A stretch of DNA of 64,000 nucleotides from Natronobacterium texcoconense (lineage in GTDB: Archaea; Halobacteriota; Halobacteria; Halobacteriales; Natrialbaceae): positions 434,001-498,000 of the forward strand of contig NZ_FNLC01000001.1 in assembly GCF_900104065.1 (NCBI RefSeq). The letters run 5' to 3'. The notes beneath the pieces were generated by a model. It ran no database searches. It saw only the letters and a program-made list of their open reading frames with translations, and was not told where the DNA came from. Below are positions 12,948 through 61,729 of the stretch, piece after piece; the first letter of the stretch is position 1; each line of letters opens with the position of its first letter. Made by a program: the position numbers and the translations under genes.

Positions 12948-13252
12948 AGGGAGGAGTTCGTTCTCGGGCGTGTACTCGCTGAAGATGGTATAGTCTACTC
13001 GTCAGAGACGATAATACGAAGAAGTGTTCTGCTACCGTGGCAACGGGGAGTAGCCACGTCCTCCCCAGCCGATTCGTTCGGTCACTCCGTTCCCTCACTC
13101 ATCCACTGTCAGAGCAAGCTCTGACAAGCCTTCACTCGCTTCGCTCGTGAAGACCTCGCGCAGCTTCGTCGACTGGCCTCGTAGATACTCGGCCAGTCGC
13201 CAGCGCGCGCCACCGTACGCTCGACGAACCAGCTACGTTCCGCTAGCCGAAC
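12948..13252. other. Gene-free interval with short palindromes
   Basis: No convincing coding frame is present. It contains a perfect hairpin gtcagagc-aa-gctctgac at 13109-13126 and a second imperfect one, cttcactcgcttcgctcgtgaag, a few bases later. A gtccctcact/cttcgctcg-rich stretch lies around them. Similar cttcgctc-type palindromes occur near the tRNA genes of this window. Confidence 0.5.
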
Positions 13253-44679: not shown

Positions 44680-44875
44680 CTGACTGAATCCGGTTCACTT
44701 CGGATTTCAGTTTCGCCGCATTTCGCTTTTCTTTCGACGAGAAATGACCCGATACCTGACGAGTTATCGCCACTGTACCAGTCGTGACTATTCCAAAGTC
44801 TCGCTCGTGAAGAGACCTGAGAGTGGCTATCGGTATCGAGGATGCTGATTTACGACATCCCATCGAGTCCACTTC

Positions 44876-44927
44876 TTCGCGCCGCTCGCGGATTTGCTCG
44901 CGGCGCAGAATAGTGGACTCGTCGGGA
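44876..44927. repeat. 52-bp exact direct repeat of the tRNA-Ala 3' end and trailer, copy 1
   Basis: The 52 bases are identical to 45142-45193, which cover the trailer hairpin and the last 14 nt of the real tRNA-Ala. This copy ends inside the acceptor/T-arm boundary (tggactcgtcggga) and continues into unrelated sequence, so it cannot encode a tRNA. Confidence 0.9.
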
Positions 44928-44995
44928 GTCACGCGAGCGAAGCGAGTGTGACTACGGAGAGTCCTCAACTGAACGAGCGAAGCGATGTGAAGAAG

Positions 44996-45017
44996 TGGAC
45001 TCGTCGGGATTTGAACC
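44996..45017 (-). repeat. 22-nt fragment of the tRNA-Ala 3' end
   Basis: The + strand sequence tggactcgtcgggatttgaa plus cc equals the acceptor 3' strand and T-loop region of tRNA-Ala (45180-45201). It then diverges (atagg instead of cgagg). It lies 184 nt from the true gene and 82 nt from the 44914 copy. Confidence 0.85.
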
Positions 45018-45141
45018 ATAGGAAGACGGTCGCTCGCTACGCTCACGGCTTCGCCGTTCGCATCGCGGTTCTCACTTCGTTCCGAATCGCGCCCCGCTCG
45101 CGCTGCGACTTCCAGGGCTTCAAATCCGACTTCGACGACGA

Positions 45142-45193
45142 TTCGCGCCGCTCGCGGATTTGCTCGCGGCGCAGAATAGTGGACTCGTCGGGA
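45142..45193. repeat. 52-bp exact direct repeat, copy 2 (tRNA-Ala 3' end and trailer)
   Basis: It is identical to 44876-44927 and overlaps the 3' end of the functional tRNA-Ala; see that entry. Confidence 0.9.
45145..45179 (-). terminator. tRNA-Ala trailer hairpin
   Basis: On the minus strand the tRNA is followed by CTATTCT and the hairpin GCGCCGCGAGCAAATCCGCG with its closing half. The stem gcgccg/cggcgc is at 45145-45172. A closely similar structure follows tRNA-Gln at 58837-58866, so it is probably a processing or termination signal. Confidence 0.55.
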
Positions 45194-45251
45194 TTTGAAC
45201 CCGAGGCCTCTTCCTTGCGAAGGAAGCGATCTACCACTGATCTACGAGCCC
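45180..45251 (-). tRNA. tRNA-Ala (anticodon CGC)
   Basis: A 72-nt cloverleaf reads GGGCTCG ... CGAGTCC with discriminator A. The anticodon stem-loop is CTTCC-TTCGCAA-GGAAG (anticodon CGC) and the T-arm is CTCGGGTTCAAATCCCGAC. No intron. CCA is not encoded, as usual in archaea. Partial copies of its 3' end lie downstream at 44914 and 44996. Confidence 0.95.
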
Positions 45252-58477: not shown

Positions 58478-58666
58478 GATGTTTGGATACCGGTGATGTG
58501 TAACCAGCTAAATCCATTACAGGTCTGTGTTAGTCGGAAACACAGTCCAGTAGGGGTGATCTCGAGGCGGGTTCAGTGGTCGGTTGGCTGGAACGCTGCC
58601 GCTTGAGGATAGACGCTCGAGGGCGTGTGAGCACCAGCCTAAATCCTATTCATCAAATATGCGTCA

Positions 58667-58788
58667 TAGCTCCGGGCGGATTCGAACCGTGGGGGCTCAC
58701 AGCCGCTCGTCCTCTGGGCCCGAATCCCGGACTATTCGCTCTTCACGTCCGTTCGTCGTAGAAGTAGTCCCGGGCGGATTCGAACCGC
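58667..58788 (-). repeat. Two tandem fragments of the tRNA-Gln 3' end
   Basis: The 3' end of tRNA-Gln (tagtcccgggcggattcgaa and following bases, 58867-58890) recurs at 58765-58788 with no mismatch over 24 nt, and at 58667-58689 with two changes. Steps are 102 and 98 nt. The sequences between the copies are also recognisably related (ggctcgaatcctctcgcctt versus ggctcacagccgctcgtcct), so the copies are diverged tandem units of tRNA end plus trailer. None can form a whole tRNA. Confidence 0.85.
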
Positions 58789-58836
58789 GAAGGCTCGAAT
58801 CCTCTCGCCTTCTGGGCTCGAACCGCCGAGGATATC

Positions 58837-58866
58837 TGCGCCTCACGAGTTTGTTCGGCGCAAAAG
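58837..58866 (-). terminator. tRNA-Gln trailer hairpin
   Basis: On the minus strand the tRNA end is followed by CTTTTGCGCCGAACAAACTC and a closing GGCGCA: a T-run plus hairpin of the same design (gcgcc, central caaa, ggcgc) as behind tRNA-Ala. Confidence 0.55.
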
Positions 58867-58969
58867 TAGTCCCGGGCGGATTCGAACCGCCGTCATGGGC
58901 TGTCTTCCGTGACGGAATGAACCGAACACGTCCAAAGGCCCATATGATTGGCCACTACACCACGGGACT
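58867..58969 (-). tRNA. tRNA-Gln (anticodon TTG) with a 30-nt intron
   Basis: The acceptor is AGTCCCG/CGGGACT with discriminator A, the D-arm GTGTAGTGGCCAATC and the T-arm GGCGGTTCGAATCCGCC. The anticodon stem TGGGC/GCCCA holds loop CTTTGG then the intron. Anticodon TTG is at 58933-58935. The intron is about 58902-58931, directly 3' of position 37, the canonical site spliced by the archaeal endonuclease. An intron in tRNA-Gln(UUG) is known in haloarchaea. Mature length is about 73 nt. Confidence 0.92.
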
Positions 58970-59017
58970 TCTCACTGCGTTCGAAGCCTCGTGAGGCTCG
59001 TAAATCCGTCGGATTCA

Positions 59018-59099
59018 CTCACCACCACGGGACTCCCCGCTTCGCTCGTCGTCCCGTGTACCTCGCAGCTCCTTTGGAACTGCTCACCACCACGGGACT
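59018..59099 (-). repeat. Two tandem fragments of the tRNA-Gln 5' end
   Basis: The + strand sequence ctcaccaccacgggact occurs at 59018-59034 and again at 59083-59099. It matches the 5' end of the tRNA (cactacaccacgggact, 58953-58969) over its acceptor and first D-arm bases. Spacing is exactly 65 nt in both steps. The in-between sequence is loosely similar. A TATA-like cacaatagtg (59124-59133) lies at promoter distance from the outermost copy rather than the functional gene. Confidence 0.8.
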
Positions 59100-59133
59100 T
59101 CATTGCTGGATAGACGACGATGCCACAATAGTG

Positions 59134-59883
59134 TTACTTTTCGTTGTGGGACGGCAGCGTTATCTCTCCTTCTTCTGCCTGTCTGTGACAACTCCGGCAG
59201 AGAGCGATCACGTTATCTAACGTGTGTGCCTCTTCTGGCCGATCAAACGACCGAACCGGTTCGAGATGATGGACATCCGGATTCCGACCGATCTCTTCTT
59301 TCGTCGCGCCACAGTGTTGGCACTCGTAGTCGTCGCGCTCGAGTGCCCGTCGGCGAACGCGCCACCACGTCCGCCCGTAGCTGATCGATCCGCCCTCCCA
59401 CTGATGGTGGTCCGACCCGACGACGTTCTCCGAGAGCCAGGAGCCGTAACACTCGAGCGTACAGAAGACGCCGCGTTTTTGTTTCTCGAGGCGGGTCGGC
59501 CGCACCTCGAGTTCGGTGCCACAACCACGACACGGGGCCGTTACCCGGTCGCCTTTTTCGGGATACGTTTCCGGCAGCAATCCGTCGGCGTCGTCAACGC
59601 AGGACGGACAGTAGACGCCGTCCTTGTCGGAGGGATAGTACGAGAACGTCGACCCACAGAGCTTGCAGTCCGTCGTCTCTTTCGCCCCCTTCCAGTTCCC
59701 GTTGTGCTCTCCCGCGTTCGGATTGCAGGAATCGCAGTAGGATCGCCGTGACTTCGGGTCGTAGAACTCGCTGTCACAGCCCTTGCACGTCCGATTCGGC
59801 AGCGGTTCGTCGTGGACCTTGGTGTGGTGCTGTCGCACCCCTCGTTCCGTGGTCAGCTCTTTCCCACACGTCGGGCAGTCCAT
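59134..59883 (-). CDS. HNH endonuclease with multiple zinc fingers
   Basis: The 249-residue protein has an N-terminal C2H2 finger (CPTCGKELTTERGVRQHHTK). Three CxxC-type ribbons follow (CKGCDSEF ... CDSC; CKLCGSTF ... CPSC; CRGCGTEL ... CTLECY). The C-terminal HNH nuclease has CQHCGATKEE, DVHHLEPVRSF and NVIALCRSCHRQAEEG. The domain combination suggests a sequence-specific, perhaps homing-type or restriction-type nuclease. It is encoded directly upstream of, and on the same strand as, the tRNA-Gln array. Confidence 0.87.
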   Translation of the reverse strand: MDCPTCGKELTTERGVRQHHTKVHDEPLPNRTCKGCDSEFYDPKSRRSYCDSCNPNAGEHNGNWKGAKETTDCKLCGSTFSYYPSDKDGVYCPSCVDDADGLLPETYPEKGDRVTAPCRGCGTELEVRPTRLEKQKRGVFCTLECYGSWLSENVVGSDHHQWEGGSISYGRTWWRVRRRALERDDYECQHCGATKEEIGRNPDVHHLEPVRSFDRPEEAHTLDNVIALCRSCHRQAEEGEITLPSHNEK

Positions 59884-61121: not shown

Positions 61122-61535
61122 TTACTGTGGATCGGGTAATTCCTCGACGAGGTCGAGCGCACCGTCGACGGCTTTCGCCGCGTTCTCGATGCGCTCGCGT
61201 GACTCGGCGGCGGACATACCGGGACCCGTCACGCCGAGGGTCACGGGGGTGTCACGCTCGAGACTGACGTCGGCAAGCTGCTGTGCGGTGGCGTCGGTGA
61301 TCACCTGATCGTGATCCGTGTCGCCGGTGATGACGGTTCCGATGACGGCGACAGCGTCGACTGCCTCGAGGCGGGCGAGTCGATCGGCCGCCAGCGGCGC
61401 GTCGTAGACGCCCGGGACGTGAACCGTCCCGTACACCTCGGCGCCGGCGTCGTCGGCGGCTTCGAGGGCGACTTCTTCCATCTGCTCGGTGATCGGTCTG
61501 TTGAACTCGGCGACCACCAGTCCGAGCGTGGTCAT
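61122..61535 (-). CDS. ribH: 6,7-dimethyl-8-ribityllumazine synthase
   Basis: The 137-residue protein has the archaeal length. It starts TTLGLVVAEFNRPITEQMEE, with YGTVHVPGVYDAPLAADRLA (the PGVYDxP-like pocket) and AVIGTVITGDTDHDQVITD near 80. It condenses the riboflavin pyrimidine and dihydroxybutanone phosphate in riboflavin synthesis. The ATG at 61535 fits a TATA box 27 nt upstream; the longer frame is unlikely. Confidence 0.92.
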   Translation of the reverse strand: MTTLGLVVAEFNRPITEQMEEVALEAADDAGAEVYGTVHVPGVYDAPLAADRLARLEAVDAVAVIGTVITGDTDHDQVITDATAQQLADVSLERDTPVTLGVTGPGMSAAESRERIENAAKAVDGALDLVEELPDPQ

Positions 61536-61557
61536 ACTCGAGCGGTGGAGAGGACGG

Positions 61558-61565
61558 GTAAAAGA
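61558..61565 (-). promoter_or_regulatory. TATA box for ribH
   Basis: On the minus strand tcttttac lies about 27 nt before the ATG at 61535. Confidence 0.55.
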
Positions 61566-61729
61566 GGTACCGTTCTCGGCGGACGCTGCGAGACGGCTGT
61601 CGAGCGGAGTGTAAGCCGTCAGACCGCGGAGTTCTTGCAAAAACGTCGTTCACCGGTTCGAATCACGAAATAGTCACGAACATGTATATCATGGTCGTGG
61701 TTCGGCGTGGAAATCAGCAATATTGAGAA

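Follow-up and report, generated by a model that had tools for sequence, protein, structure and literature searches.

A haloarchaeal family of hairpin cassettes tailored to the ends of tRNA genes

Among described systems, the nearest precedent for the cassettes reported here may be the rtT repeat behind tyrT of Escherichia coli. In that operon, tandem 178-bp repeats lie 3' of the tRNA, each with its last ~19 nt, and are contained in the tRNA transcript. The haloarchaeal cassettes likewise form repeats 3' of a tRNA that carry its 3'-terminal ~19 nt, a likeness of plan and not of homology; rtT, in contrast, belongs to a single bacterial operon and has neither 5' units nor tailoring over many tRNAs. 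The cassettes also resemble REP/REPIN and MITE units, being short, non-coding and hairpin-forming, patchy in occurrence, and gained or lost whole. REP and MITE units, however, are fixed sequences without tRNA tailoring, whereas the cassettes sit at tRNA ends and carry the terminus of that very tRNA in both orientations. Some casposons and other Cas1-type integrations occur at tRNA 3' ends, with a longer target-site duplication; the cassettes share that location but are structured bodies of ~65–165 nt, and no Cas1-bearing element lies at the present locus. To our knowledge, no element duplicates the end of its target tRNA and copies that end into its own arms.

Like the cassettes, integrase att scars contain the 3' part of the tRNA copied in direct orientation, starting at the T-loop, but they flank kilobase elements that bear an integrase (PMC8371274, PMC9897764, PMC3119063), whereas the cassettes have hairpin bodies of ~65–165 nt, an inverted arm and a tandem arrangement. 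An earlier sequence-only reading of the locus described below had set such scars aside on the premise that they normally duplicate only the 3' end. Ordinary 3' scars indeed provide no explanation, but the premise is not absolute, as pTN3-like archaeal integrases target the 5' half of the tRNA gene (PMC8371274).

Here, we describe an array of such cassettes around a tRNA-Gln gene in a 64,000-nt stretch of DNA (hereafter ‘the window’) from a haloarchaeal genome of 4.0 Mb. The gene matches Rfam RF00005 with 50.7 bits and was missed by ARAGORN run in intron-free mode; it contains an intron of ~30 nt (about 58901–58930), whereas orthologues without the intron measure 73 nt. This intron corresponds to the 31-nt intron of the Haloferax tRNA-Gln(TTG) (PMC7714728). 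In 5'-to-3' order along the minus strand, the locus consists of the promoter-like element AAAAGTAACACTATTG, two 65-nt units that each begin with AGTCCCGTGGTGGTGAG, the tRNA-Gln gene, a 102-nt unit, and a 98-nt unit (Table 1). The two 3'-end copies reported by the sequence-only reading, at steps of 102 and 98 nt, were confirmed, each corresponding to about the last 22 nt of the tRNA. On the 5' side, its claim that both steps are exactly 65 nt holds for the 12-mer AGTCCCGTGGTG, although the copies begin a few nucleotides from the positions it gave (59018 and 59083). The TATA-like element that it placed at promoter distance is AAAAGTAACACTATTG; 42 nt separate this element from the outermost 5' copy, and the 5' part of the array lies between promoter and tRNA. 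At most loci without 5' units, promoter and tRNA are likewise separated by 42–50 nt. Finally, the units were rightly described as diverged and in tandem, and the spacers as related: those of the two downstream units are 77% identical over 65 nt, and the upstream units belong to a single 65-nt family with compensatory changes.

These copies are not a product of chance, an explanation that was rejected by shuffling, by the clustering of the 12-mer, and by the genome-wide controls given below. All three exact matches of AGTCCCGTGGTG in the window fall inside 142 nt. The 18-mer CGGTTCGAATCCGCCCGG of the 3' copy has three exact matches in the window and, with up to three mismatches, four against 0.44 expected; none of 100 shuffles reached four. 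Neither similarity at the level of shuffled sequence nor absence from relatives was found; 44 of 109 tRNA-Gln loci of the family carry 5' units.

A search of positions 58600–59160 with cmscan up to an E-value of 10 returned only the tRNA and a chance match to cyano_tmRNA, RtT RNA (RF00391) not being among the matches, and plasmid and phage collections searched at ‘distant’ sensitivity contained no match to the cassettes. The largely open-access literature that we searched contains no description of this repeat family, and an earlier one may exist. An open reading frame of 136 aa (58584–58994, plus strand) that reads through the tRNA copies, with peptides such as VPGGFEP, is almost certainly spurious and is likely to be a trap for annotation. 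A zinc-finger/HNH endonuclease-like gene (59134–59883, minus strand; Pfam HNH, E-value 2e-8) ends just 5' of the tRNA-Gln promoter, and related coding sequence occupies the same position in many relatives. The tRNA-Arg called by ARAGORN at 61365–61441 (minus strand), inside a lumazine synthase-like open reading frame (61122–61640, minus strand), is probably false since it has no Rfam support.

The units share a common plan, D-h1-I-h2-D. D stands for the adjoining tRNA's own end copied directly (about nt 54–73 on the 3' side and nt 1–12 on the 5' side), I for part of that end copied in inverted orientation, and h1 and h2 for tandem-G.A hairpins. Bodies are structured and measure about 65 or 80–165 nt, with no gene between the copies. 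That 5' and 3' units follow the same plan is evident when the 3' anatomy is set beside a 5' unit adjoining tRNA-Gly(CCC), which has a core of the tRNA-Gln type (GTGAGCAAATCCG..GGATTTGCGAG) but ends of its own; a similar unit is present in a relative.

Table 1. Features of the two tRNA-associated arrays of the window (positions count from its first letter)
Feature	Position	Strand	Details
Promoter-like element AAAAGTAACACTATTG	59126–59141	minus	Conserved ahead of the outermost 5' copy; precedes the tRNA itself at loci lacking 5' units
Outer 5' unit, 65 nt	59035–59099	minus	Direct copy of tRNA nt 1–12 at 59088–59099; inner stem-loop 59065–59083; inverted copy CACGGGAC 59051–59058
Inner 5' unit, 65 nt	58970–59034	minus	Direct copy 59023–59034; inner stem-loop 59000–59018; degenerate inverted copy 58986–58993; terminal tandem-GA hairpin 58967–58988
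tRNA-Gln gene with intron	58867–58969	minus	Rfam match
3' unit 1, 102 nt	58765–58866	minus	h1 58838–58862; h2 58790–58812; inverted partial copy about 58815–58832; direct copy 58765–58788
3' unit 2, 98 nt, diverged	58667–58764	minus	Terminal direct copy of tRNA 3' end 58667–58690
Second array, tRNA-Ala(CGC)	44850–45251	minus	tRNA 45179–45251; h1 45147–45171; own-3'-end copy 44996–45017; partial copy 44914–44926; further h1 44881–44905

Both arms are tailored to the tRNA that they adjoin. Across 65 units, the D copies are 97–100% identical to their own tRNA over nt 2–12 from the 3' end and 83% identical at the last nucleotide, whereas identity to other tRNAs is mostly 0.3–0.5. The copy breaks off sharply at the T-loop, 21–22 nt from the 3' terminus of the tRNA, and identity falls to background beyond nt 22. 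In 57 of the 65 units, the I arm matches its own tRNA more closely than it matches other tRNAs (Wilcoxon p 7e-9), as is visible at unusual T-arms such as those of Met and His.

The array itself is real, as the sequence-only reading held, but that reading overlooked that units also adjoin the majority of the genome's tRNA genes, among them the tRNA-Ala of the window. The last 20 nt of the gene are copied (with no more than four mismatches) within ~180 nt downstream at 29 of 41 tRNA genes, and an oddity of tRNA-Gln alone was accordingly rejected; the controls, a copy of the own end upstream and the end of another tRNA at the same downstream place, both yielded zero. Copies of the own 3' end are also found at 21 of 30 tRNA genes of a second genome of the same family, and at 11 of 30 and 5 of 30 tRNA genes of genomes from a second and a third family, respectively; in the last of these, tandem tRNA genes account for part of the signal. 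A pattern for the h1 loop has nine matches in the window's own genome, all directly 3' of a tRNA (Val, Phe, Ile, Gln, Gly, Thr, Pro, Cys, and Pro), and a stricter version occurs in 98 of 292 haloarchaeal genomes of a class-wide sample, against none for the reversed control. A tRNA called by ARAGORN adjoins the match in 15 of 19 named haloarchaeal loci with the stricter pattern; at the other loci, four in number, an intron-bearing tRNA may have escaped ARAGORN in its intron-free mode, and one of these loci shares a contig with a tRNA-Gln locus of our set (L011). None of the 21 bacterial control loci that were checked has a tRNA adjoining the match. Elsewhere in the window (12980–13220, minus strand), tandem-GA hairpins at 13131–13152 and 13174–13196 have no tRNA close by and may represent a stray hairpin of this kind.

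At the 109 tRNA-Gln loci of the family, we counted 54 units on the 5' side, 41 of them exactly 65 nt long, and 41 units, mostly of 98–103 nt, on the 3' side of 36 loci; 45 loci have no unit whatever. Several genera share the copy offsets -65, -130, and -195. The distance from the promoter to the outermost 5' copy is mostly 42–55 nt and overlaps the promoter–tRNA spacing of loci without 5' units, which places the 5' units between leader and tRNA. The tRNA-Gln gene of another genome of the family (L115) has an altered acceptor stem, AGCCCTG.

Several observations bear on the strand that folds. Beside the inner stem, tandem G.A steps number 103 in tRNA sense, 2 on the opposite strand, and 0.2 in shuffled sequence; since the orientation of the units is locked to that of the tRNA, this indicates that the folded molecule is the tRNA-sense strand, whether as RNA or as single-stranded DNA. 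The 446-nt sense strand folds better than its shuffles (z -5.9). In the 65-nt 5' unit, two-sided changes affect 9 of 18 pairs, with 59 cells against 20.6 when shuffled, a value that none of 500 shuffles reached, and the signal is lost when the pairing partners are slid. The stems of the units are nearly all Watson–Crick, without a strong preference for G.T: wobble positions are G.T in 24 and A.C in 18 cases in I arms genome-wide (p 0.44), whereas tRNA stems of these genomes have 43 G.T and no A.C. The 5' units favour G.T when cells are counted (37 versus 8) and only slightly so by distinct pair types (11 versus 7).

Closely related loci differ by whole units. Two loci that are 95% identical over 2 kb (L049 and L048) have arrays that differ by exactly 201 nt, i.e. 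two units; within the window's own genus, two loci (L098 and L099) are one 62-nt 5' unit apart; and further pairs are separated by one unit of 65 nt (L024 and L014) or 101 nt (L027 and L105). In each of these clean empty and filled sites the indel ends in a duplicated tRNA end, as is characteristic of MITE-like units. Between genera, units may be far more alike than their surroundings: in L049 and L050, the unit body is 100% identical, compared with 65% for the adjacent HNH coding DNA and 81% for the tRNA intron region, and 48 inter-genus pairs of unit bodies are at least 90% identical, with a mean HNH identity of 0.68. These results show a haloarchaeal family of hairpin cassettes tailored to tRNA ends, with sense-strand hairpins, compensatory changes and some near-identical members in different genera; whole cassettes are gained or lost between close relatives.

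We consider it somewhat probable, on balance, that the tRNA-Gln array is one case of haloarchaeal cassettes that each insert whole, the tRNA end being duplicated in the process. Among the three explanations that the sequence-only reading had offered, insertion of a tRNA-targeting element also fits best, given the clean empty and filled sites, the units common to several genera, and their confinement to tRNA ends. A cassette would enter a tRNA end as a unit, probably via a folded single strand, with that end being duplicated, so that the promoter and terminator would still face an intact tRNA end. Recombination between D copies could later remove or amplify cassettes, which may have spread between species by the same insertion route or by gene transfer. 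Against insertion count the absence of a recombinase or transposase tied to the cassettes and the tailoring of the I arm, which goes beyond a simple target-site duplication. Unit similarity is 0.68 for the same tRNA in two genomes, 0.58 for different tRNAs, and 0.49 for shuffled sequence, so movement between tRNAs appears rarer than spread at one tRNA, and jumps between different tRNAs must, on this measure, be rare, which again counts against insertion. A dedicated enzyme may not be needed at all, as gene transfer and homologous recombination could explain the identity between genera. Whether the cassettes amount to tRNA-targeted mobile hairpin elements of a new class, inserted as a folded strand at the 5' or 3' end of nearly every tRNA gene, with both arms rewritten to match and dozens of tailored termini in one family, is a bolder proposition, which we advance tentatively and regard as rather doubtful.

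Other explanations account for part of the evidence. The units might be functional pre-tRNA elements, i.e. transcribed leader and trailer hairpins that steer processing by RNase P or tRNase Z, act as attenuators of the tRNA, or yield stable small RNAs. The transcribed array of tRNA-derived fragments suggested by the sequence-only reading may likewise apply. The promoter spacing, the sense orientation of the tandem-G.A hairpins, the compensatory changes in the 5' units, and the folding of the 446-nt sense strand would all suit such a role, which we nevertheless judge unlikely given the many unit-free tRNA-Gln loci, the whole-unit differences among closely related strains, and I arms that hardly prefer G.T. 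Nor is a protective (‘insulator’) role of the I arm against disturbance of the cloverleaf supported in silico: predicted native acceptor pairing averages 0.97 for the tRNA alone, 0.24 for the precursor, and 0.15 with the I arm shuffled (native versus shuffled p 0.24), values that describe equilibrium folding at 37 °C and ignore co-transcriptional folding and high salt. Fold-back copying would dispense with a mobile entity altogether: a stalled nascent strand would fold at a hairpin, copy the tRNA end inverted, fold again, copy the direct arm, and re-anneal. Such double template switching would yield exactly D-h-I-h-D on the 5' and 3' sides with both arms tailored, and agrees with stems that are nearly all Watson–Crick, but leaves unexplained the hairpin core GTGAGCAAATCCGNNGGATTTGCGAG common to Gln and Gly, the retention of tandem G.A steps in the stems, and the near-identical unit bodies across genera; we deem it quite improbable.

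Still less can be said for two further processes. If each partial copy were the att site of a tyrosine integrase whose element has since been lost, the gene end should be copied directly, starting at a symmetric loop, as is indeed found; the 3' copy begins at the T-loop, one of three tRNA-gene regions that integrases use (PMC8371274), use of the 5' half has the pTN3-like precedent, and Haloquadratum prophages have left partial tRNA copies of 22 and 43 nt (PMC3119063). Between the copies, however, there is no integrase or element DNA, only the hairpin bodies, which are uniform, structured, and marked by compensatory changes, at 29 of 41 tRNA genes, and tailored inverted arms are not expected in scars, making this origin highly improbable. 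Replication slippage, one of the suggestions of the sequence-only reading, or unequal crossing-over would duplicate tRNA ends with their flanks, and survives as a minor process of copy number. The D repeats would permit it, and tandem duplication does occur, as shown by a locus (L041) in which two adjoining 5' units are identical; but neighbouring units mostly differ in sequence and type, and plain slippage therefore accounts for some copy number only. As an origin of the units it is refuted, since one unit type recurs amid unrelated flanks and genera and the hairpin plan with its inverted copies is not a slippage product.

If the cassettes are mobile, tRNA genes would be colonised harmlessly by elements that duplicate the target end and copy it into their own arms. 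If they instead function as RNA, undescribed structured leaders or trailers would be present on most of the tRNA precursors in these archaea. On either reading, a partial tRNA sequence in a haloarchaeal genome should not by default be taken for a prophage scar.
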